Shown here piece by piece: positions 865 through 12,231 of a stretch of 12,231 bases of DNA. Below the pieces are notes generated by a model. The model saw nothing but the letters and a program-made list of their open reading frames with translations. It was not told the origin of the DNA and made no database searches. A program made the translations under genes and the position numbers. The DNA comes from Actinomycetes bacterium. GTDB lineage: Bacteria > Actinomycetota > Aquicultoria > CAJVYJ01 > JAUVQD01. The stretch's first letter is position 1. Each line of letters begins with the position of its first letter. Where the stretch lies: NCBI GenBank assembly GCA_030666075.1, contig DAOUYN010000008.1, forward strand, positions 1-12,231, read 5' to 3'.

Positions 865-898
865 ATCCCCCAAACGGGGGATATTGGGCATATCGCCC
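865..898. promoter_or_regulatory. Pair of palindromes just after the response regulator gene, possible operator
   Basis: ATCCCCC (865-871) and GGGGGAT (876-882) form a perfect 7-bp inverted repeat with a 4-nt spacer. A second, short one follows: GGGC (886-889) and GCCC (895-898) around 5 nt, touching the stop codon of the response regulator. No T-run follows the first stem in either direction, which argues against a simple intrinsic terminator. NarL-family dimers bind short inverted repeats with 7-base half-sites, so the first palindrome could be an operator for the adjacent regulator. That role is inference. Confidence 0.4.
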
Positions 899-1554
899 TA
901 TTCTTCCAGCGATTCTAGTTTGACGAGATTATGGCGAATCGCATGAAGCACGGCGTGCATCCGATCTTTTTGACCGAGTTTTTCAAGCACGTGACTGACA
1001 TGTGACTTGATGGTCTCCTCGCTGACGAAGAGCTTTTCCGCCATCTCTTTGTTTCTAAGACCCCGGGCCATCAGCCCCAAGATGATCGTCTCGCGCTCGG
1101 TCAGTTCGTGGTCGTCGCGGTGGTTAAGTGACGGTTTGCGTCCAAGACGCTCGACGACCCGCCTCGCCACTTGCGGCTGCAAGAACGAGATTCCGCCCTC
1201 CACCGACCACACGGCCTCCATCAATCCCTCGCTGCCGATGTCTTTCAGCACATATCCATCAATGCCCGCATTGAGGGCATTGAAGATATCGTTCTCGTCG
1301 TCGACGGCCGTGAGGGCGATGATCTTGATCGCGGGAAATCGCTGCTTGATCTCCTTAGCCGCCATGATGCCGTTCTTTCTCGGCATCCTGATATCCATCA
1401 AGATGATATCGGGCTTAAGCTCACCGACTTTCTCGCAGGCCTCTTGTCCGTCGCAGGCCTCCCCTACTAGATCGAACGCATCCTCAGACTCGAAGACCAA
1501 GGATAGTCCCCGGCGCATGATCTCATGGTCGTCGACTATCATGATCTTGACCAT
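898..1554 (-). CDS. NarL/FixJ-family response regulator (receiver plus LuxR-type HTH), orphan
   Basis: A 218-residue two-component regulator. The receiver domain (1-120) has the acidic pair D8/D9, phospho-acceptor D54 in LMDIRMP, switch T82 and conserved K104. The C-terminal LuxR-type helix-turn-helix (about 145-212) begins LTERETIILGLMARGLRNKE and contains VSEETIKSHVSHVLEKLG. It presumably binds DNA as a dimer after phosphorylation. I chose the ATG at 1554 because GGGGAGG (1560-1566) lies five bases upstream. An upstream ATG at 1584 would add ten residues, encode this Shine-Dalgarno and overlap the previous gene. No histidine kinase is encoded in the window, so the partner is unknown. The gene follows the FAH-family gene after 13 nt and is probably the last of the operon. 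Family certain, target unknown. Confidence 0.93.
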   Translation of the reverse strand: MVKIMIVDDHEIMRRGLSLVFESEDAFDLVGEACDGQEACEKVGELKPDIILMDIRMPRKNGIMAAKEIKQRFPAIKIIALTAVDDENDIFNALNAGIDGYVLKDIGSEGLMEAVWSVEGGISFLQPQVARRVVERLGRKPSLNHRDDHELTERETIILGLMARGLRNKEMAEKLFVSEETIKSHVSHVLEKLGQKDRMHAVLHAIRHNLVKLESLEE

Positions 1555-1559
1555 CAGGA

Positions 1560-1566
1560 CCTCCCC
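1560..1566 (-). promoter_or_regulatory. Ribosome binding site deciding the response regulator start
   Basis: GGGGAGG on the minus strand, five bases before the ATG at 1554. It sits just upstream of the stop codon of the FAH-family gene (1568-1570), in the 13-nt gap, and argues against the ATG at 1584. Confidence 0.8.
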
Positions 1567-1567
1567 A

Positions 1568-2323
1568 TTATTGTGATACGCCATTCTCCAAGCGACCGAT
1601 CCCCTCGACCGTTACAGTGACAGAGTCGCCGACGGACAGCAGCCCGACGCCTGGAGGTGTTCCCGTTAAAATAACGTCACCAGGTAGCAAAGTCATCACT
1701 CCCGAGATGAAAGAGACCACCTCGTACACATCGAAGATCATCTGGGCGGTTGATGAGTCCTGCCGGACCCGCCCGTTTTGCTCCAATGTGATCCGGATCG
1801 CTCTCGGATCAAGCTCGGTCTCGATATGGGGGCCAAGGGCGCAAAAGGTGTCAAAGCTCTTGGCCCGGGTCCACTGACCGTCGCGCCTTTGCAAATCGCG
1901 AGCCGTGATGTCGTTTGCCCCGGTAAAGCCAAAGATATAGTCCGGCGCCTCGTCGGCCGAAACCGCATGCGCCGTGCGCCCGACCACAATCGCCAGCTCG
2001 GCTTCGAATTCCACTTGTTCCGAAGCTTGAGGGTAGAGAATGTCGCGACCGGGTCCGATCACAGTCGTCGGGGGTTTAATGAAGAGGACCGGCTCCTCGG
2101 GGACCTCCATGTTTATTTCTTTTGCGTGGTCCCGGTAATTAAGTCCGACCGCTACGACTTTTGAAGGGCTGACCGGCGCCAACAGCGTCACTTCTTTGGG
2201 GTCGAAGGTTTCGCCGGTCCGGACGATACCCTCGAATGGTTCGCCGGCCAGGCGGTCGATGGTGCTCCCGTTAACGACCCCAAAGGACACGATCCCACCG
2301 TGCTCGAACCGGACAACCTTCAC
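1568..2323 (-). CDS. Fumarylacetoacetate hydrolase (FAH) family protein
   Basis: A 251-residue protein of the FAH superfamily, cytoplasmic divalent-metal enzymes that hydrolyse, decarboxylate or isomerise beta-keto acids. The metal site is visible as E107 and E109 in VEFEAELAIVVG plus D138 in GANDIT. Other family marks are the H66/E69 dyad in LNYRDHAKE, K83 in FIKPP, K155 in AKSFD and TGTPPGVG near the C-terminus. The His-Glu dyad resembles FAHD1-type acylpyruvate hydrolase or oxaloacetate decarboxylase, but family members with different substrates share these residues, so I name no substrate. The start is GTG, overlapping the cimA stop as GTGA, which implies translational coupling. Placement after ilvE and cimA suggests a house-cleaning or keto-acid role next to isoleucine synthesis (inference). 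Confidence 0.92.
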   Translation of the reverse strand: MKVVRFEHGGIVSFGVVNGSTIDRLAGEPFEGIVRTGETFDPKEVTLLAPVSPSKVVAVGLNYRDHAKEINMEVPEEPVLFIKPPTTVIGPGRDILYPQASEQVEFEAELAIVVGRTAHAVSADEAPDYIFGFTGANDITARDLQRRDGQWTRAKSFDTFCALGPHIETELDPRAIRITLEQNGRVRQDSSTAQMIFDVYEVVSFISGVMTLLPGDVILTGTPPGVGLLSVGDSVTVTVEGIGRLENGVSQ

Positions 2324-3882
2324 TTGGCGCCCTTAAGGCGCGACAAGCCGTACTCGAGCCCGTCGACCAAAGCCTCCCAGCTCGCCTCGATCACGTTCTC
2401 GTGGACACCGATAGTTCCCCAAGCTGTCTCGCCGTCGGTGCTTTCGATATAGACCCGGACCTTGGCCCGCGTCCCGCGGCTTTGATTGATGACCCGCACT
2501 TTATAGTCAGTCAGATGAATCTTGTCAACCAAGGGCTCGGCGGTGCGCAGGGCTTGGCGCAAGGCCCGGTCTAGCGCGTTCACGGGACCGTTTCCTTCGC
2601 CGACAGCCACGAAACGTTCATCGCCCATGGCTATCTTGACCACTGCCTGCGACTCGGTCACCTTGGAACGGTGCCGATTATCGGTCACCTCGTAGTTCTC
2701 CAGTTCAAAGAGCGGCTCATAGGCCCCGGTGTTCTTGAGGATGAAGATGCCGAGCGAACCGTCCGCGGCGTCGTAGGTGTAGCCCTCTTGGGCCTTATCT
2801 TTAAGCTTGTTGAGTAATTCCGCTACTTTGTCTTTATCCTCGGACAGCTCCACCCCGATCTCGCGGGCTTTGTGAATGATCGTCGCCGACCCCGAAAGGT
2901 CGGAAGCGATTATGGTCGGATAATTACCGACGACCGCCGGCTCCACATGCTCGTAAGCACTGCTGTTGCGCTTGATCGCACTAATATGGACGCCCCCTTT
3001 ATGGGCGAAGGCGCTCTGCCCGACATAGGGCTGGTGATTATCCGGAATCGCGTTGACGACCTCGGCCACGTAGTGAGAAAGGTCGGTCAATTGGGCCAAC
3101 TTCTCTGGGCCAACGGTCTCTATGCCGGCTTTCAGCTCAAGGTTGGCGATGATCGAACAGAGATTGGCGTTTCCGCAGCGCTCCCCGTAGCCGTTTATCG
3201 TGCCCTGCACTTGAGTGGCGCCCGCGGCCACCGCCACCAGACTGTTGGCGACGGCGCATTCGCTGTCGTTGTGAGCGTGGATGGCGATCGGGGTCTTCAT
3301 TAAACTGACGACCTCCGCGACCACAGTCTGAAGTTCATTCGGCAGCCAGCCGCCGTTCGTATCACATAAAGCTATCCAGTTTGCGCCCGCATCTTCGGCC
3401 GCCTTGATAGTTGCCAGCGCGTAGTCCCGATTTGCGGCCCAGCCGTCAAAGAAATGCTCGGCATCGTAGATGACCTCCAGATCGTGTTCCTTCAAGAACT
3501 TGACCGACTCGAAGATCATCTTGAGATTCTCTTCATAAGTCGTCTGCAGCGTTTCGGTAACGTGCAGGTCCCAGCTCTTGCCAAAAACACAGACGGCCGG
3601 CGTGCCCGCCTCGACCAGAGCTTTGAGCGTCGGATCTTCCTCGGCCTTGATATTCTTTCGTCTCGTGTTGCCGAAACCGACCAGCTTAGCCGTAAGTCCG
3701 ATCTGGGCGGCGCGCTCAAAGAACTCCTTGTCCCGCGGATTGGAGCCGGGAAACCCACCCTCTATGTAATCCATGCCGAAGGAGTCTAGCTTGACGGCGA
3801 TCTTGAGCATATCTTCGGCGCTCAAGGCGATACCTTCGCGCTGAGCACCGTCCCTTAGTGTCGTGTCATAAAGCGTTATCAT
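2320..3882 (-). CDS. cimA: (R)-citramalate synthase
   Basis: A 520-residue enzyme that condenses pyruvate with acetyl-CoA to (R)-citramalate, giving 2-oxobutyrate for isoleucine without threonine deaminase. The N-terminal HMGL-like TIM barrel shows LYDTTLRDGAQREG (residues 4-17), the metal ligands in HAHNDSECAVANS and GTINGYGERCGNANL. A regulatory LeuA-type dimer domain fills roughly the last 150 residues (GPVNALDRALRQAL, then the WGTIGVHENVIEASW segment). The length and the DGAQREGIALS opening fit the long citramalate synthase branch rather than 2-isopropylmalate synthase or homocitrate synthase. Those share the barrel and remain the alternative. The C-terminal domain implies feedback control, usually by isoleucine. 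The ATG overlaps the ilvE stop (ATGA) and its own stop overlaps the FAH gene (GTGA), so the three genes are translationally coupled. Confidence 0.93.
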   Translation of the reverse strand: MITLYDTTLRDGAQREGIALSAEDMLKIAVKLDSFGMDYIEGGFPGSNPRDKEFFERAAQIGLTAKLVGFGNTRRKNIKAEEDPTLKALVEAGTPAVCVFGKSWDLHVTETLQTTYEENLKMIFESVKFLKEHDLEVIYDAEHFFDGWAANRDYALATIKAAEDAGANWIALCDTNGGWLPNELQTVVAEVVSLMKTPIAIHAHNDSECAVANSLVAVAAGATQVQGTINGYGERCGNANLCSIIANLELKAGIETVGPEKLAQLTDLSHYVAEVVNAIPDNHQPYVGQSAFAHKGGVHISAIKRNSSAYEHVEPAVVGNYPTIIASDLSGSATIIHKAREIGVELSEDKDKVAELLNKLKDKAQEGYTYDAADGSLGIFILKNTGAYEPLFELENYEVTDNRHRSKVTESQAVVKIAMGDERFVAVGEGNGPVNALDRALRQALRTAEPLVDKIHLTDYKVRVINQSRGTRAKVRVYIESTDGETAWGTIGVHENVIEASWEALVDGLEYGLSRLKGAK

Positions 3883-4748
3883 CCGACCGGAGTGCCATGA
3901 GTTTGAGCGTAAGCATGGAACTTAGTCATCAGGTCGGTCGTGATCGGCCCGGGCTCGCCATTGCCGATATGCCGTTCATCGACGATGGTGATCGGCGCTA
4001 TCTCAGCCGCCGTGCCTGTCAAGAAGGCCTCATCGGCGACATAGACGTCATGGAGCGTGATGATCCGCTCCTCGACCGGATAGCCGGCTTCCCGAGCCAG
4101 GTCCATGACAGTGTCGCGGGTCACGCCCTTAAGGGCGCCCATGCTCGTCGGCGGCGTCACCACCGTGCCCGCATCGACCAAAAAGAAGTTGTCCACAATA
4201 CATTCAGTAACGTAGCCGTCGGCGTTGAGCATCAGACCTTCCTGGGCATCGGTCCGATTGACCTCTAGGGTCGCCAGCACGTTGTTTAAATAGTTTAGCG
4301 ACTTGACCCTCGGGTTCAGGGCCTCCAGCAGATTGCGACGCGTCGAGACCGTGACTATCTTCATCCCGTGCCGATAAACTTCTTCGGGATAGATACTGAT
4401 GGTCGAGGCGATAATAAAGATCGAGGGCTTGGGGCACTTGATGGGGTTGAGTCCGAGATCGCCCTTGCCTCGCGTCACTACCAACCGCATGTAACCGTCG
4501 GCCAGACCGCTACGGCGGGCAGTCTCCACTATGGCCGCCTTCAATTCGTCATGATCGAGCGGCACGGCCAGCATGATGGCCTTGGCTCCGCCGTAAAGGC
4601 GATCCAAATGCTCATCGAGCTTGAAGATGGCGCCGTTGTATATGCGGATACCCTCGAAAATACCGTCCCCGTAGAGAAGGCCGTGATCGAATATAGATAT
4701 CTTGGCATCGTCCTCACTGACGAACTGGCCGTCGAGGTAAATCTCCAT
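3879..4748 (-). CDS. ilvE: Branched-chain amino acid aminotransferase
   Basis: A 289-residue fold-type IV pyridoxal phosphate transaminase that converts branched-chain 2-oxo acids to valine, leucine and isoleucine with glutamate as donor. Key features are HGLLYGDGIFEGIRIYNG (22-39), the PLP lysine K149 in RVKSLNYLNN, E182 in VTECIVDNFF and the GTAAEIAP segment (245-252). Length and motifs match short bacterial IlvE. D-amino acid transaminase and aminodeoxychorismate lyase share the fold, but the FEGIR segment and the cimA neighbour favour IlvE. It begins 13 nt after the stop of the transglutaminase-like gene. The upstream TAGGTAG is a weak and rather distant ribosome binding site. No clear promoter is visible in the gap, so it is either read through from the tubulin-like operon or driven from inside the preceding gene. 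Confidence 0.93.
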   Translation of the reverse strand: MEIYLDGQFVSEDDAKISIFDHGLLYGDGIFEGIRIYNGAIFKLDEHLDRLYGGAKAIMLAVPLDHDELKAAIVETARRSGLADGYMRLVVTRGKGDLGLNPIKCPKPSIFIIASTISIYPEEVYRHGMKIVTVSTRRNLLEALNPRVKSLNYLNNVLATLEVNRTDAQEGLMLNADGYVTECIVDNFFLVDAGTVVTPPTSMGALKGVTRDTVMDLAREAGYPVEERIITLHDVYVADEAFLTGTAAEIAPITIVDERHIGNGEPGPITTDLMTKFHAYAQTHGTPVG

Positions 4749-4761
4749 TGTGATATTCTAC

Positions 4762-5820
4762 CTAGCGCTCTGCCGTCTTGTAAACCCATAGCCGCCCATC
4801 CTTCAGCTCGTCCGAGACCTCTCCAAGGCTCCGGGTGTGCGCGGGTTCGCAAAGAACGTAACGCGAGTCTTCGTATTGGATGGAAAATCCATCCGCCCCA
4901 TCGACCAAAACTCCGACACCGGTCCAAGCGCCCCGCTCGACGATAATCGTGCCGTACCCCAGTTCCCGGAGTAAGACAACGAGTAAAACGGACTTACAAT
5001 CGGCGTTGCCGACGTGTTCAAAGAGAGTCTCCAGAGGCCACCGCGTGTAGCGGCGCCCTTTGGCTAAAGGATCCGCCGCTGTCGGGATGGCCTGGACAAA
5101 AGCCAACACCGATTCGACTTCCAGGACAGGCTCCAAGCCGGCTGCCTCCGCCGTCTCCCGCAGACCGGCCGCTACCCGCCGGACCTCTTCAGGCGCACCG
5201 TCCTGCACCAGGTGGCCGTAGACACGCCGGCCGAACTCTCCTTGATTGGCCGGATTAGCTCGGACGGATTCCTCATATCGCCCGCGTTCGAAGGCCGATT
5301 CGAGCCGCAGTTCCAAAACGTCTCCCGTCGGGTCCGGCGAACGCCAATGATAGAGGTGAACGGTGCGCCCCGCTCCCTCGCCCGTCCACAGGTCCAATCT
5401 GTGGCGCCCCGGCCCGGGGTCATCCTCGCCCGAAACCCGGCGCACGGTCAGCGGTTTCTGGGCCACAGATACAAAAGCCACCATGACGGCCAGCCCGAGC
5501 GGCAGGAGAGTGGGCTCGACGGCCAAGAACAACAGCGAAGCCAGTAGAGCAAACCGCCAGGCAAAAGTATCTATTCCCCCGATCCCGGTCCGTCGCGTCA
5601 GCCGCTCGCGAAGCACGGCCAGCCCGGGCCAGACAATGGTCTCGAAACGCTTGAGCGATAGCGCCGCCAGGGCCATCAAAGAATAGGTCAAGATAGCGAC
5701 TAGTATCCATGAACCCTCGGACCCCAGTGCCGGAAAGACGGGCTCGGCTTGGAGCAACCACAGGCGTAAGGGAAGAATGTAAAAGAGTCCGACGAAAACG
5801 ATGCTGACCAGAAATATCAC
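4762..5820 (-). CDS. Membrane protein with degenerate transglutaminase-like domain
   Basis: A 352-residue protein. The N-terminus has about four hydrophobic helices (roughly 2-23, 37-56, 86-102 and 104-121). A soluble part follows: about 130-240 is charged and helical, and the C-terminus resembles the transglutaminase-like cysteine-protease fold. ADCKSVLLVVLLRELGYG (273-290) matches the family's GDC...LL..LLR.LGY helix with C275 as the would-be nucleophile, and RYVLCEPA (320-327) matches the strand carrying the acidic residue. The expected histidine, usually in a HxxVGV strand, is absent: the segment reads GAWTGVGVLVDG. It may be catalytically dead or have a different active site. The start is GTG, overlapping the stop of the 679-residue partner as GTGA, so the two are probably made together. 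Function unknown; a membrane partner of the tubulin-like system is inferred from context. Confidence 0.8.
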   Translation of the reverse strand: MIFLVSIVFVGLFYILPLRLWLLQAEPVFPALGSEGSWILVAILTYSLMALAALSLKRFETIVWPGLAVLRERLTRRTGIGGIDTFAWRFALLASLLFLAVEPTLLPLGLAVMVAFVSVAQKPLTVRRVSGEDDPGPGRHRLDLWTGEGAGRTVHLYHWRSPDPTGDVLELRLESAFERGRYEESVRANPANQGEFGRRVYGHLVQDGAPEEVRRVAAGLRETAEAAGLEPVLEVESVLAFVQAIPTAADPLAKGRRYTRWPLETLFEHVGNADCKSVLLVVLLRELGYGTIIVERGAWTGVGVLVDGADGFSIQYEDSRYVLCEPAHTRSLGEVSDELKDGRLWVYKTAER

Positions 5821-7856
5821 GCCGCGTCCTCCTGCGTGAGAGGGGCGAACGCCAGCTGAACGTAGATGAGCTGATGCGGGCGCGAAACATCGACAACTCC
5901 CGCTTCCCTGAGAAGAGTAGGATCAGCCGCGAGCGGCGAGGAGCGGCCGCCCGGCAAGGCGGCCAGGACCACAGCCTCGGAGCGGGCAGATGAAGACGGA
6001 TGAGGCGGTCGCGAATCAGACCTGAGCTGATCAAACAGTGCCGCCAGGGATTCGCGATCACTATCTGCCTCCAGCAGTGACCTATCGAGGGTCTGTTCGT
6101 CGACGAATGTCAGTCCGCCGCGCGCGAAGTCATCGAGACCGGCCGCTAATTCTTCTCCTCGAAGTGAACGCCATTCTCGATGATGGCCGGCCGCATAACG
6201 GGCCGACTCATCCTCTTTATCGTAGCGACCGCGTTTGTACCGAGGGTGGACTGCGGGCTCCACCTGTGAAAAAAACGAGCGGGAGGTCGGGGGCGTCCTA
6301 CTCAGGGCGTGCAGATATAGCTTACGGAGCCCGGTCAGGGCCTCCTGCTCCGCGAAGAGCGCGGCCGACCAACTATGAACGGGCTCGGCTTCACCCTCGT
6401 CGACGTCCGCCCCTGATAACCACTCCGCCAGCAGGCGCCACCCGGCCCGGTCCACTGCTTCTCGATATTGAGCGACTAACGATTCTATATATAGGGAGCG
6501 GGAGTCGCGTAACGAAGCCTGGGCCCGCCGAAGAAACAGGAAAATGAAAAGGCCGGTCAGGATTGCTGCCGCGGCCCCGAAAACGGGCGGCGGCGGCAGA
6601 TAAGCCGGGTTGATATACCCTTCGGGGAAAGCTCCCAGGACCCGCACGAATTCCACGCCAAAAAAGTAAGTCAAAGGTATCAGTAGCCAGCTGCGGGCGG
6701 CAAGCGCCACCGCTTCCGGGTGCCCTTTGATCCGCCTAATAAGATCCGCGCGAAAGACCTCCGGGTCCTTGAGCTCGACCGGTTTGGTGGCGGCGCGGCT
6801 CTCCACTTCATCTTTGAGCGCCGCCGTCCGCTCCCCCAGCCGCTCGAGGAATCTCTCTGCTTTGTCCAGAGCACCCGATTCCGCCATGAGGTCGTCGAGC
6901 TCGGAGCCGAGCGCCGCAGCCTCGCTCTCCCCGAGACGGTCGAGGTTCCGCTGCAGTCGACCGATAATCCGCGGTAATCGCTCCCGCCCAATATAATCTA
7001 CGTGGCCGTCGATCTTCTTCACCCAGGAAGAGAGTGGTACGCCGGCAAATTGGCGAGCCTCTACGATCAACGCGTCGACCGCCGTCCCCTCGTCATCGGC
7101 GACGACCACCTCTCTTAGGGCATCCGCAAAGAACTCCCGCCGCTTCAGATACTCGTCTGCCTGCCGATAAAATAGTTCGCCGGCTCCGCCCAATAATCCT
7201 TCATTGACCAGCTCATGAATGAAGCGGTTCGATTCCTCCTCGACCAAGCTCTCGATCGGATGGACCAGCCCCGCCAGTCCGACTCCGGCCGAACGGGCCC
7301 GGCGGACCTCCATGATATCTCCAAGCGCTGCATCAAAGGATGGTTCAGCCAGCAGCGATGCAAAGGCAGCGGCAGTATCGCTTTGATTGGACCCGGATAC
7401 AAAGAAATGCCGATGATAAATGCTCTCATCGGGAAAAGCGGCGGTCTGCGGGGGCAACCGAAAGATCCCGGTCACCTCGATCGGTCCGACCCGGAGCCGA
7501 TCAGTGGAACTGTTGAAGAGCCTCGCCAGTCCCGCACTTAGCTCCATGGCTCCGGGGTCTTCTCTGTCGGCGATCGTCACGACCGCGGGGCGGGGCGTCC
7601 CGGTTCCAGCCCCATCCGGCAGCTCAATAAACTTACCGGCGCACCAATCTATAAAGGAGTCCGGTGTCTGGGTATCTTTCAGGCCGGCGGGACACTCGAC
7701 CAGAGTCAGGCCCCCAACCGTCTGAAAGGAGAACCCCGGCGCGCTATCGACTGTGCTCAGGGCCGCCATGACCACGGCGTCGCTTGGTTTCGATGACTCC
7801 AGACGGCGCAATGAATCGACGCCGAACGACCCCAACCCGAGAATAATCACGTTCAT
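5817..7856 (-). CDS. Membrane protein with N-terminal degenerate tubulin-like fold
   Basis: A 679-residue protein I cannot assign to a named family. The N-terminus (MNVIILGLGSFGVDSLRRL) parallels the T1-loop opening of the tubulin-like neighbour (LILGLGGTGAETAARL). At 91-113 a strand and helix (AVVTIADREDPGAMELSAGL) occupy the place of the neighbour's GTP signature, and about 30 residues later IFRLPP mirrors IFMPG. The glycine-rich GTP loop itself is missing. Residues 200-380 are charged and helical, probably coiled coil. Two membrane helices follow at about 388-410 and 424-443 with a proline-rich link. The remainder (450-679) is soluble, with a Pro/Ser-rich patch near 615-625. The short N-in/C-in hairpin would place both large domains in the cytoplasm. 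It starts 3 nt after the tubulin-like gene. A Rossmann-type NAD domain is the alternative for the N-terminus. Confidence 0.78.
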   Translation of the reverse strand: MNVIILGLGSFGVDSLRRLESSKPSDAVVMAALSTVDSAPGFSFQTVGGLTLVECPAGLKDTQTPDSFIDWCAGKFIELPDGAGTGTPRPAVVTIADREDPGAMELSAGLARLFNSSTDRLRVGPIEVTGIFRLPPQTAAFPDESIYHRHFFVSGSNQSDTAAAFASLLAEPSFDAALGDIMEVRRARSAGVGLAGLVHPIESLVEEESNRFIHELVNEGLLGGAGELFYRQADEYLKRREFFADALREVVVADDEGTAVDALIVEARQFAGVPLSSWVKKIDGHVDYIGRERLPRIIGRLQRNLDRLGESEAAALGSELDDLMAESGALDKAERFLERLGERTAALKDEVESRAATKPVELKDPEVFRADLIRRIKGHPEAVALAARSWLLIPLTYFFGVEFVRVLGAFPEGYINPAYLPPPPVFGAAAAILTGLFIFLFLRRAQASLRDSRSLYIESLVAQYREAVDRAGWRLLAEWLSGADVDEGEAEPVHSWSAALFAEQEALTGLRKLYLHALSRTPPTSRSFFSQVEPAVHPRYKRGRYDKEDESARYAAGHHREWRSLRGEELAAGLDDFARGGLTFVDEQTLDRSLLEADSDRESLAALFDQLRSDSRPPHPSSSARSEAVVLAALPGGRSSPLAADPTLLREAGVVDVSRPHQLIYVQLAFAPLTQEDAA

Positions 7857-7859
7857 GGC

Positions 7860-10800
7860 CTACCCGGCCAACGGTAATCCGCGGTCGCGCTGGTCTTTTA
7901 ACCGGCCGACGTAGGCCGTGAGAGCATCGTACTCTCGCCTGAGCATCTCGCGCTCCTCCTCGTCATCCCGACGTTTGACCTCGCTGACGATGATACGGTC
8001 GAGATACTCCTCGATATCCGTGATGAGGTGATACTGCTTCAGTTTCTCGAGTTCACCGATGAGCCGGCCGGCCCGGTCCGAAACCTCCGAGAAACCCACC
8101 AGGTTTTCGGCCGCCTCGAGCCGACCGGCGGTTGAAAGTGTCTCGATCGGTCCCATACGCAGGACCTTATCGGACTCGACCAGCTGAACCGCATAGTAGT
8201 CCTGGGCATCTCCAGCGAAGACGTAGCCCCGCACCGGGCGGCTGTCTATCTTGTCCTGCTCGATCAGACTCAAGACAACCGGATCTTTCTTGAAAACCAG
8301 ATAATCAGTGAAGAGACCGAGGGCAAACTCACAGACGGCCTGGTCGTCCAGGCTCGAGGACGTCCGCAAATCGGGAAGGGCTTCGATCTCCCGGCTCCAA
8401 TCTTGCCGAATATGTAATGGCTGGCTGCCCGAGAGCTTAGCGCGGCGCATATATTGCTTGTAGTCGGCGCGCAAGGCCGGCATGACCCGCAGAGCAAAGA
8501 GTGGCAGGCCATGTTGTGCCTGCAAGAGAGTGACTTGATGGTTATCGGCTGTCCGCACTAGTCCGGGGCGGTTCTGTCCCTGTGGTAGGGGCAGCGCATC
8601 AGGGTCGCTGTAACCGAGCGAAAACGTCCGCGGAAGGTCGACCGTACCCGCGTCATGGGCCTTTTCTTTATCATAATTCCAACATGGTTGGGACAGCTCG
8701 AAGAGGTTGCCCATAACTTGTTCGGAAAACTTCTGCTGTCCCACACTCTCGTTGACGGCTTCTACGGCCGTGCGGCTCAAGGTTTCCTTGAAGAGCTGCC
8801 TGACATGCTCCGAGACCATCGCTATCAGGACCTTATTGATCTTGACCTCCTGATCGCTGGTGGCCAGATCATACAAACCATGCCCGTGCACATCCTGAGT
8901 CTCATTCAGTCGAGCCAAGATCGCCTTGACGTGTTTAGACATGTTTGCCGGGCGGACTTTTTCATCATAGACAGCCTGGAACTCAGATGACTCTAAGGCC
9001 TCGAGCACCTTATGCGGAAAGATCTGCGTGGTGATCGTCGCCCCCCTATCGGCTTTGGCCAACGCCCGATCCCGGCGACGTTCATCCGCGCGTTCAGCCA
9101 GATGGTTCAGGCGCCCGATGATCAAATCTATCTTATCCAGCTCCCGATCGATGACGCTGCGCTGGACTTTGCGACCGACGCGGATCTCTTCATCCTCCAA
9201 GTATTCCTCAACGACCTGCTCTTGGCCGACCAGCGCCGTCAGCAGGTGTTGTTTGCGATCGGCTATCCTTTCTTGAAAAGACGCCTCGGCCAGGTCTCTA
9301 AGCGCCGATGCCAGGCGCCTCGCCGCCTTGCCGGTGTTACGGCCGCGAAACGGCACGAGCGAGTCACCGGTGAGACGCTCGAGCGATACCAGCTCCTTGT
9401 TGAGCGCGGCCCGATGGCGCCCTTTGATAACGCCCCATTCAGACTTCTCCTCGCGCATTTGACGCAACAGCTCCCGGGCGCTTCTTTTTGCGCCCATGAC
9501 GGTTTTCTGCGCGTAGGCAACACCCAGCTCGCAGTGGTCGACCAGATTGACGACCGCGTCGACAACTTCCTTCTTCGCCTCCTCCTCATGATCCCGGCAG
9601 TTACGATCGATCAGGAGGAGACCCTCGGTGATCCGGCTATCATTGAGATCGATCTCTTTTGTCAGCTTGTCGATCCGCCCCTTGCCCAGCGCCTGAGACA
9701 GTTCTCCCCCCGTCGGGATCTGAGCGACGAAGTCGAGAGCCGGGCGGCACAAGTCATCAATAGCGACCATATTCGTCGGCCCCAGGCGTTCGAAGAGGCC
9801 GGCTTGGCGCTCATCGCTTTCGACAGCCTCATCCATCCAGGCATCACTGGCGGTCAGGTCCATATAGATCATGTCGCGTAAGAAGCGGTAGACCAGCTGC
9901 GACTGGATAGTGTGGCGCGGAAAAAGTATCCGGCTGAGGCCAAGACTGCTGTAAGCGGTCCGTTTTCCTTGCCGTTGATGAGAGGGTTCGACGACAGCGT
10001 CGATATTGGTCAAGCCGACCCCCTCTTCCTCCTGGCCGACGGGCGTGACGATCATCTGATACATGGCGTCTGCCGTCAGGTCGTACGCATCCTCCGGGCG
10101 GTCTAGATTGCCGATATTGCCGAGCTGGCGGTCGATAATGTAGACGTATTTAGACAGGTTCCCCGCCGGTATCATCACGCGCTGGCTGGAATCTCTGGTC
10201 TTGGTGTCCAGGATATATTTGTTCAGGTCGCTGCCCGGCGAAAGAAAGTAGTCTAGCTCCTTGAGAAAAGCGTAAGCGTTGGCCCGATGCGCCGAAACTA
10301 GTTCGAGTGAGCGCTTTCGCGCCTCTTCCTCATAGACCCCGGGCATAAAAATAAACGAGCGTATCTCCGGCACCCGCCCCTGGGATAAAACGGCCCGCCA
10401 CACTTTGTACAAGATATCGAGGAAGATGCCGCTCCCCGTCCCCCCGCAGGCGGACGAGATGATATAAACACGGAAATTACCGCCTACATCGGCCAGATTC
10501 TGGTCGCGCACCAGGTCTTCGTAGAGCGTGCACGTATCGACGACTTTCTGGTGGATGATCGATTCCACCTGGTAGTGCATCTGATGCAGAAAGAGCCGTC
10601 CCAGCTGGCGAACACGCTTGGCTCCCCACTCTTGATATTGGGGCGACACATGGTAGCGATTGTCCCACCAGTCGCGCAAGTTCCGGTCCTTGGCGTAGTT
10701 CTCCTGAAGAAAGCTGTACCCGTTGAAGTCCTGGGCCAGATTGACGTACTCCTCTTCCGACTCCGAAAAGGTGCGGACGATATCGGGGTTCTGCTGCTTC

Positions 10801-11042
10801 AGTAGCCCGATGGTGTCAAAGAGGAGGAACTTGATCATGTCCGCGTGCTCCTGAACCTGACCGTATTCGACTTGGAGGTGCTGCTTTAAGCGCGCGGCCG
10901 TCTCGGCCCCGGTGCCGCCAAGGCCCAAAATCAAGGTCGGCTGCGGCGCGCGCCTCTCGAACCTTTCGGACTGGACAGCTTCGCGGCTGCGAACTTCACC
11001 GGTCAGCCCCTCAAAAAACTCCTCATTCAGTATCGAACACAT
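7860..11042 (-). CDS. Large tubulin/FtsZ-like GTPase (Tubulin_2-type family)
   Basis: A 1060-residue protein. Residues 35-400 form the tubulin-like core: LILGLGGTGAET (37-48) is the first nucleotide loop, LLFDT (73-77) a following strand, and SSACGGTGSGIF (196-207) the tubulin signature that binds GTP phosphates. IFMPG (231-235) and RANAYAFLKELDYFL (253-267) match the next strand and helix. NIDAVVE (346-352) sits where the catalytic T7 loop would be, before YSSLGLSRILFP. Residues about 400-1060 are a long, highly charged, mostly helical extension absent from FtsZ, ending in a coiled coil (about 1005-1055). No membrane helix is seen. It presumably polymerises or acts as a GTP switch in the cytoplasm. 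The start ATG has AGGGG six bases upstream (11049-11053). Tubulin-fold membership is well supported; polymerisation is inferred. Confidence 0.9.
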   Translation of the reverse strand: MCSILNEEFFEGLTGEVRSREAVQSERFERRAPQPTLILGLGGTGAETAARLKQHLQVEYGQVQEHADMIKFLLFDTIGLLKQQNPDIVRTFSESEEEYVNLAQDFNGYSFLQENYAKDRNLRDWWDNRYHVSPQYQEWGAKRVRQLGRLFLHQMHYQVESIIHQKVVDTCTLYEDLVRDQNLADVGGNFRVYIISSACGGTGSGIFLDILYKVWRAVLSQGRVPEIRSFIFMPGVYEEEARKRSLELVSAHRANAYAFLKELDYFLSPGSDLNKYILDTKTRDSSQRVMIPAGNLSKYVYIIDRQLGNIGNLDRPEDAYDLTADAMYQMIVTPVGQEEEGVGLTNIDAVVEPSHQRQGKRTAYSSLGLSRILFPRHTIQSQLVYRFLRDMIYMDLTASDAWMDEAVESDERQAGLFERLGPTNMVAIDDLCRPALDFVAQIPTGGELSQALGKGRIDKLTKEIDLNDSRITEGLLLIDRNCRDHEEEAKKEVVDAVVNLVDHCELGVAYAQKTVMGAKRSARELLRQMREEKSEWGVIKGRHRAALNKELVSLERLTGDSLVPFRGRNTGKAARRLASALRDLAEASFQERIADRKQHLLTALVGQEQVVEEYLEDEEIRVGRKVQRSVIDRELDKIDLIIGRLNHLAERADERRRDRALAKADRGATITTQIFPHKVLEALESSEFQAVYDEKVRPANMSKHVKAILARLNETQDVHGHGLYDLATSDQEVKINKVLIAMVSEHVRQLFKETLSRTAVEAVNESVGQQKFSEQVMGNLFELSQPCWNYDKEKAHDAGTVDLPRTFSLGYSDPDALPLPQGQNRPGLVRTADNHQVTLLQAQHGLPLFALRVMPALRADYKQYMRRAKLSGSQPLHIRQDWSREIEALPDLRTSSSLDDQAVCEFALGLFTDYLVFKKDPVVLSLIEQDKIDSRPVRGYVFAGDAQDYYAVQLVESDKVLRMGPIETLSTAGRLEAAENLVGFSEVSDRAGRLIGELEKLKQYHLITDIEEYLDRIIVSEVKRRDDEEEREMLRREYDALTAYVGRLKDQRDRGLPLAG

Positions 11043-11048
11043 ATGTAT

Positions 11049-11053
11049 CCCCT
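11049..11053 (-). promoter_or_regulatory. Ribosome binding site of the tubulin-like gene
   Basis: AGGGG on the minus strand, six bases before the ATG at 11042, within the 34-nt gap after the vWA/FHA gene. No promoter is evident in this gap, so the gene is probably co-transcribed with the one upstream. Confidence 0.6.
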
Positions 11054-11076
11054 ATATCCTCAGAGGCGCCGTGGCG

Positions 11077-12231
11077 CTAGCTCCACTGCAATCTATATTC
11101 CCCGATCTGGACTATGGAGCCGGAATGAAGTTCCATCTCTTCAGTCACGATCACCGGTGTCGACGCCGTTGAGCGCGCCACCCTGACCGTCCCTTCCCGC
11201 GGGCGGATGAAAACTTTGGCTTCCCCGTCGTCCCAGGCTGTAAAAAGTTCCGCGTGAACAGACTCGATGCCCGCGCCGCAGAGAGTCACGCGGCCATTCG
11301 CGCCCAAGCTCGCCCGTCGTCCCAGACCTTCCAGATTTACCGGTCGGGGTAGTTTCTCCCCCTTAGGAGCTGCGGAAAACGCAAGTCTGCCAAAAAGAGG
11401 CGGTGCGAATAATCCCCGGTACGCCAGCTGGCCCGCCGGGTTGACAGCATAGCGTCCGAAGAGCAGAAGAGTGGTGAGCGCGGCCAGCCCGATCAAGACG
11501 AACACGTATAGAGCCAGACCAGTCGTTCGGGAGAAGAGTATCTCCCTCTCCTCGCCGCTCGTCTTGATGACAGGGTCGATCCCCAAGCGTTCGATCTTCG
11601 GCGCCAACGGCAGTTCAGCCACGAGCGCCACCTTCAATTGCCCGCGCCACGACTCTTCTTTCTTCAAGTCGACCGCGTCGGCGCCGCGGGGCGCGACGAC
11701 CTTTATCGGGATCGTCCGGCGCTCACCGGGTTCGATGACGAACTTCTTGTCCTCGACGATCAACTCGGGCGCGATCTGCATTGAACCGTCGTCGCTTGGC
11801 CCCGCGGCCGCTCCCTCGGATACAGGCTGAAACCCTCGCCACGAGAGTCCGGACAGATCGATTTGCACCGGGAGAGTCTTATATTTCGACTCTATGATCA
11901 ACTGGTGCTCCTCGGTCGCCCCAGGCCGAAGCGCTCCCCAATCAGTCTCATCGACCGATACTGTCACGCTGCCCTTATCCAGTTCCTGCCCCACCTCATG
12001 CTTTAGACGTTCCCGCCGTATCTTCTCCTTGAGCTGCCGGAAATGAGTCCCGAGTTCGCTCGATTCTATCGATATCGGCCTGGCCTGCGGCCAGATATTT
12101 TTTAGGCGATCGACATCCGTGTTTTGATTGAGGCCGATGGCCAAAACGTAGGCCTCCTTTGACGTGCTCTCGTTCGCCGCCCTGTCTTTTAGGTTCGCCC
12201 AGGCCTCCCCGGGACGGATGGCGAATTCGCT
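11077..12231 (-). CDS. vWA-domain membrane protein with C-terminal FHA-like domain, 5' end cut by window edge
   Basis: The frame is open to the window edge, giving 384 residues of a longer protein. An internal TTG at 12144 is not the true start. Numbering from the first visible residue, EAYVLAIGLNQNTDVDRLKNI (26-46) through the LGTHFRQLKEKI helix (60-71) looks like the last strand and helix of a von Willebrand A domain. The metal-binding MIDAS motif would lie outside the window. A beta-rich, Ig-like region follows (about 88-220), with paired EPGERRTIPI-type strands. One membrane helix spans about 237-259. The C-terminus (about 294-384) resembles an FHA domain: VHAELF matches the conserved HA strand and SIVQIGEYRLQW the last strands, but the phosphothreonine-binding Arg and Ser are replaced. 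The expected topology is vWA outside and FHA-like inside, facing the tubulin-like protein (inference). Confidence 0.78.
   Translation of the reverse strand, partial: SEFAIRPGEAWANLKDRAANESTSKEAYVLAIGLNQNTDVDRLKNIWPQARPISIESSELGTHFRQLKEKIRRERLKHEVGQELDKGSVTVSVDETDWGALRPGATEEHQLIIESKYKTLPVQIDLSGLSWRGFQPVSEGAAAGPSDDGSMQIAPELIVEDKKFVIEPGERRTIPIKVVAPRGADAVDLKKEESWRGQLKVALVAELPLAPKIERLGIDPVIKTSGEEREILFSRTTGLALYVFVLIGLAALTTLLLFGRYAVNPAGQLAYRGLFAPPLFGRLAFSAAPKGEKLPRPVNLEGLGRRASLGANGRVTLCGAGIESVHAELFTAWDDGEAKVFIRPREGTVRVARSTASTPVIVTEEMELHSGSIVQIGEYRLQWS

Follow-up and report, generated by a model that had tools for sequence, protein, structure and literature searches.

FtsZl1 proteins have posed a puzzle since 2010: these tubulins are cytoplasmic, their partners are extracytoplasmic, and no connection across the membrane is known. 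The question raised by the locus studied here is whether such a link is encoded beside the tubulin itself. The locus lies in a window of 12,231 bases, which is the whole of contig DAOUYN010000008.1 from a metagenome-assembled genome of an Actinomycetes bacterium (GCA_030666075.1, estimated to be 75% complete). An initial annotation, made from the sequence alone, had proposed an operon for a vWA/FHA-like protein, a tubulin-like protein of 1060 amino acids (aa), a two-helix membrane protein of 679 aa and a multi-pass transglutaminase-like protein of 352 aa. The main finding is that, in a few uncultured actinobacteria, the 1060-aa protein, referred to as Tub, and a membrane-spanning homologue without the T4 loop are encoded together and have been kept together.

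The FtsZl1 Protein Tub

Residues 37-392 of Tub matched the Tubulin_2 profile PF13809 with 143.3 bits against a cut-off of 27, which bore out the proposed membership of the FtsZl1 family. The T1 motif was GLGGTG (residues 40-45). The T4 motif GGTGSG, reported as intact, was located at residues 200-205 within CGGTGSG (199-205), and it was invariant in five aligned Tub proteins of the order. As an FtsZl1 protein of the cytoplasm whose GTP-binding signature is intact, Tub would be expected to bind GTP. A match to PF00091 (FtsZ) was found on a separate contig in all seven genomes of the order (fragmentary in G004), so Tub is not the division FtsZ. Searches of PDB sequences with Tub and with the 352-aa family gave nothing relevant. 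A T7-like NID motif in Tub was invariant in the order and not invariant in other FtsZl1 proteins; it is not claimed as a feature.

The 679-aa Protein as a Second Tubulin Homologue

The two transmembrane (TM) helices described earlier for the 679-aa protein were predicted at about residues 391-409 and 424-442, together with long helices, and both termini were predicted to be cytoplasmic. Rather than an unrelated partner, the protein is by sequence a second tubulin homologue, and so the model changes. A Pfam scan of the protein from the window gave no match. Among its sister-family homologues, L016 matched PF13809 with 36.8 bits (over the cut-off of 27) and L014 with 19.7 bits (below it). Homologue searches, with the protein of the window included, found four proteins for the 679-aa family and six for the 352-aa family (about 8,000 candidates scored in each case).

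The relationship was detected by profile comparison with hhalign. The N-termini of seven 679-aa family proteins aligned with the N-domains of 11 FtsZl1 proteins with a probability of 94.0, an E value of 1.3e-7 and a score of 63.1; with 15 FtsZl1 proteins, the values were 98.3, 2.5e-14 and 110.3, respectively. Against the 11-row profile, the controls scored 19.3 (best of 60 column shuffles), 17.9 (reversed profile), 17.1 (vWA family), 20.9 (transglutaminase-like family) and 27.2 (true FtsZ of the same genomes). With the 15-row profile, the scores were 16.7 for the top shuffle out of 60, 19.5 for the vWA family, 18.0 for the transglutaminase-like family and 27.8 for FtsZ.

The 679-aa protein carried a T1-like GLGSFG at residues 7-12, and the pattern GLGx[FY]G was kept in all seven rows of its family. 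The T4 position read ADREDPGAMEL. In the joint alignment, GG[TSA]G was present at T4 in 13 of the 15 Tub rows, the remaining two (GATG and GGTC) being one residue off, and was absent from that position in every 679-aa family row (7/7); the GGAG that two of these rows carry at residue 223 lies elsewhere. For lack of the T4 loop, the protein was not filed as a GTPase. By its sequence, it is a diverged Tubulin_2 homologue without the T4 signature, and it has presumably lost GTP binding.

Operon Layout and Conservation

The four consecutive minus-strand open reading frames run from 12231 to 4762 (Table 1). In gene order, the vWA gene is followed by 34 intergenic bases and the Tub gene by 3, and the last two genes overlap by 4 bases, in line with the tight spacing first noted. 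The vWA gene is truncated because the window is an entire contig.

Table 1. Positions of the operon genes in the window
Gene product	Positions	Strand	Length	Remarks
vWA protein (gene fragment)	11077-12231	-	384 aa	open at window end
Tub	7860-11042	-	1060 aa	FtsZl1/Tubulin_2 protein, PF13809 match
Membrane-anchored tubulin homologue	5817-7856	-	679 aa
TM and transglutaminase-like protein	4762-5820	-	352 aa	GTG start

With Tub as the query, 7 of 60 genomes were matched (its own, one of the same genus, three of the same family and two of the same order), and there was no match among the other 53. The PF13809 profile matched 16 of 396 genomes of the phylum, including all seven of the order, which span two families. 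The initial annotation made its proposal depend on the four genes staying together, and the same gene order was found in the order-level relatives. A vWA homologue was located directly upstream of Tub in 7/7 genomes, which agrees with the partnership proposed. The two membrane partners also remain with the tubulin. The 679-aa family directly follows Tub in 5/5 contigs extending that far (those of G002 and G004 end just after Tub and were not counted), and the 352-aa family comes next in 4/4 contigs, the G001 contig holding just its first 64 codons and the G006 contig ending within the 679-aa gene. Furthermore, the ratios of nonsynonymous to synonymous substitution (dN/dS) against the closest relative were 0.041 for Tub, 0.126 for the 679-aa gene and 0.132 for the vWA gene (215 codons), and these three genes are under purifying selection (0.04-0.13); the 352-aa comparison was out of register and was dropped. 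The observation made initially was thus confirmed, and its interpretation was partly supported.

Downstream on the same strand, positions 898-4748 hold mutually overlapping genes for an aminotransferase, an HMGL/LeuA-type synthase, an FAA hydrolase and a LuxR-type regulator. The gap between the operon and this group is only 13 bases, so the transcript may exceed the four-gene unit first described, and the operon and these genes are possibly one transcript. On the upstream side, beyond the vWA gene, a distinct GTPase or OmpA-like gene had been anticipated. Both family-level relatives scanned (L011 and L012) had a pyridine-nucleotide-disulphide oxidoreductase gene in this place; the window itself ends there.

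The vWA/FHA-Like and Transglutaminase-Like Proteins

The vWA fragment comprises the last part of a vWA domain and, beyond a linker, a single TM helix (about residues 239-257) and an FHA-like tail; a Pfam scan of its 384 aa gave no match. The single pass described earlier holds only for the fragment, and the vWA half with its metal-ion-dependent adhesion site (MIDAS) motif was deduced from the relatives. The full-length relatives (530-574 aa) add an N-terminal hydrophobic helix, followed by a VWA domain with a MIDAS-type DTSLS, a second TM helix and an FHA-like tail. Pfam detected the VWA domain in all three homologues scanned (L012, L014 and L015; VWA_2 with E 5.8e-12 in L012), and PF00498 (FHA) stayed sub-threshold in the same number of full-length homologues (E 0.02, 0.055 and 0.023). 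The FHA-like region matched PDB entry 2g1l weakly (E 0.2), a chain which we take to be an FHA domain. By its charge pattern, the protein would be bitopic, with vWA outside and the FHA-like tail inside. Matches to Ser/Thr kinases were found in 7/7 genomes of the order; the operon contigs read showed no gene for a kinase.

The 352-aa protein begins with three, possibly four, TM helices, continues with a basic loop and ends in a transglutaminase-like domain. Its multi-pass nature was upheld, and the transglutaminase assignment was weaker, with PF01841 giving a sub-threshold match in one of seven homologues (E 0.0086). The Cys (residue 275) was kept in 7/7, and Thr stood at the catalytic His position in all of them; the positions of the triad are our presumed assignment. 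The Cys-His-Asp triad of transglutaminase-like enzymes is accordingly incomplete in this family, and the protein is probably non-catalytic.

Proposed Model and Alternatives

We propose, with about even confidence, that the operon encodes a membrane-docked two-tubulin system in which the 679-aa protein is a nucleotide-dead membrane seat, nucleator or cap for Tub. The seat would be permanent, and GTP-loaded Tub would assemble on top of it. By analogy, this templating may resemble the subunit-to-subunit templating in other tubulin-fold assemblies. The vWA/FHA-like protein could tie the assembly of Tub to an envelope signal and to phosphorylation on Thr by the Ser/Thr kinases matched in these genomes, and the 352-aa protein, with its His-less domain, would be a non-catalytic membrane partner; both would act as regulators. 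The output is probably the organisation of an envelope structure, for which pilus-linked motility was the sole published lead found. PF00437 (pilus/secretion ATPases) matched in 7/7 genomes of the order and also in 14/14 controls, and therefore had no discriminating power. As a separate observation, three neighbouring T2SSE (PF00437) matches, presumably PilT-like by their size, were seen in five of the seven genomes (G002:C113, G003:C38, G004:C211, G005:C27 and G006:C119).

Several results weigh against the two-tubulin model. Pfam gave no PF13809 match for five of the seven 679-aa family rows, the window's among them. The first full-length hhalign comparison (7 and 5 rows) reached a probability of just 19.9% with E 0.0011, and the signal turned strong once N-domains and diverse Tub sequences were used. 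Tub and the 679-aa protein look alike by eye in their C-terminal halves, a similarity that was rejected as not significant (E 0.1; shuffles reach 0.041). Moreover, the AlphaFold2 model of the 679-aa protein had a mean predicted local distance difference test score of 61 and a predicted template modelling score of 0.40. Foldseek found no PDB match for this model at E <= 0.001 and ranked dynamin-like and pore-forming helical proteins at the top, with tubulins from rank 14 (probability 0.82-0.99); VIA-align re-ranks only the candidates supplied by Foldseek. The proposed kinase/FHA link consists of co-presence and a sub-threshold domain, and FtsZl1 proteins are not known to form filaments (PMC2875224).

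The last point bears on a rather unlikely alternative, in which no filament is formed and the set works as a switch for signalling or for sensing the envelope, with Tub as a GTP-dependent scaffold toggling among the vWA/FHA-like, pseudo-tubulin and transglutaminase-like proteins. T6-H7 could not be located in FtsZl1 by Makarova and Koonin, who left filament formation undecided (PMC2875224). The predicted vWA-outside, FHA-inside topology and the kinase matches in every genome of the order are consistent with a switch, but the FHA match is under the cut-off and the operon contigs read yielded no kinase gene. It is improbable that the 679-aa protein binds nucleotide through an altered site and co-polymerises with Tub as the second subunit of a heteropolymer. 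The T4 glycine loop, found as GG[TSA]G in most Tub rows (13/15), is missing in 7/7 rows of its family, although the retained T1-like motif (7/7) and the purifying selection on its gene (dN/dS 0.126) would suit such a role. Very improbable is an anti-phage or conflict function of the four-gene set. In Thermaceae plasmids, brxL follows vWA-Tub-gene 3 in all three records found, with an insertion sequence (IS) between in one; PADLOC scores the Thermus gene as BrxL, and one other actinobacterial gene 3 bears a Trypsin_2 domain. However, Tub is present in 7/7 genomes of two families in the order, metabolic genes adjoin the operon in the window, and none of the four proteins encoded there was matched with confidence by PADLOC (best E 0.006).

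Other FtsZl1 Loci

FtsZl1 systems in general may be two-tubulin machines, the membrane partner in many lineages being a decayed, membrane-anchored, nucleotide-dead tubulin twin under a GTP-driven subunit. We consider this extension of the two-tubulin model possible and somewhat doubtful. If true, the order studied here would be a lineage in which the tubulin origin of the membrane partner is still legible in the sequence. Among seven other actinobacterial loci with full-length Tub (L042-L048), five had a downstream gene bearing one or two mid-protein hydrophobic helices; profile comparison found no confident connection of these downstream proteins to tubulin. For the putative Streptomyces-type gene 3, the probability against FtsZl1 was at most 3.9 (E 0.011). 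Its score of 27.9, in register at the FtsZl1 N-terminus, was reached by 0/120 shuffles and was level with that of genuine FtsZ, and its structure model was only suggestive of a tubulin link. Gene 3 of two Thermaceae plasmids had no predicted TM helix. A search for relatives of the L048 gene 3 found itself alone (1/61). The L047 gene 3 matched 59 of 61 genomes, and among the matches listed, all were in the trypsin region except itself and one at residues 443-675.

Several further arrangements were observed. The protein encoded by this L047 gene (L047:3586-6837) ends in a Trypsin_2 domain (E 1.3e-28). Another two-tubulin arrangement, seen at L049:415-4089 and L050:7511-11140, consists of two short Tubulin_2-like proteins in tandem, of about 500 and 573 aa (45% identical in L050). 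GGTG was present at T4 in both copies of L049; in L050, the pattern GG[TSA]G was detected in the 573-aa copy alone. In L113 (Azospirillum sp. TSA2s plasmid p2), the FtsZl1 gene has three caspase-family and three OmpA-family genes around it. The Thermaceae plasmid loci (L108, L109 and L112), in which brxL is BREX Lon-like and the IS belongs to L108, also have helicase, exonuclease, WYL, HEPN or TROVE genes nearby, and an association of FtsZl1 with defence is possible there.

Comparison with Known Systems

Two tubulin-fold paralogues act together in the alpha/beta-tubulin and BtubA/B heterodimers. Unlike these, one partner here has no T4 signature and is predicted to span the membrane, and the partnership is a proposed one. 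FtsZ, with its tethers FtsA, ZipA and SepF, is a cytoplasmic tubulin homologue tied to the membrane by a dedicated protein, whereas the tether proposed here would itself be a tubulin homologue.

Like the FtsZl1 family as described in the 2010 paper, Tub has a PF13809 profile match, a GTP-binding signature, an adjacent vWA gene and a co-existing FtsZ, and its 1060 aa are similar to the 1051 aa of Huta_2051 (PMC2875224). An adjacent GTPase, kinase or OmpA gene is frequent in the family, not universal (PMC2875224); none was seen here, where the window ends at the contig end. The parts of the paper's text covered here do not describe a second, T4-less membrane-anchored tubulin homologue such as the third gene here (PMC2875224). 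SSO1376 of Sulfolobus solfataricus is likewise described as a diverged FtsZl1-like protein with predicted TM helices, so membrane segments in the FtsZl1 family have a precedent (PMC2875224). Its helices are N-terminal, its GTP-binding motifs are kept and its gene is transposon-disrupted. In contrast, the 679-aa protein has its hairpin mid-protein, has lost T4 and adjoins an intact FtsZl1 gene.

In the Synechocystis cluster sll0445-sll0447, the genes beside that of the Tubulin_2 protein Sll0445 encode two partners, annotated as FtsA- and DivIC-like, which reportedly associate with Sll0445 (PMC9880817). Co-fractionation and mutant data, with reported effects on phototaxis and photosystem II electron transport, have been published (PMC9880817), and the earlier statement that such partners are not characterised needs softening. 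In a 2023 evolution paper, the outgroup was made up of Tubulin_2 proteins (PMC9871819). The open-access literature searched contained no description of a T4-less transmembrane homologue paired with an intact tubulin. In review of the 2010 paper, it was objected that FtsZl1, being cytoplasmic, had no way of joining partners outside the cytoplasm (PMC2875224), and the T4-less membrane-spanning homologue beside Tub bears on this objection. A membrane-embedded tubulin homologue encoded beside an intact FtsZl1 offers a concrete, testable link through the membrane, and would be a bacterial case of an active/dead tubulin pair. The pairing of active-type and membrane-anchored tubulin relatives in one operon suggests that a tubulin machine comes with its own anchor to the membrane.
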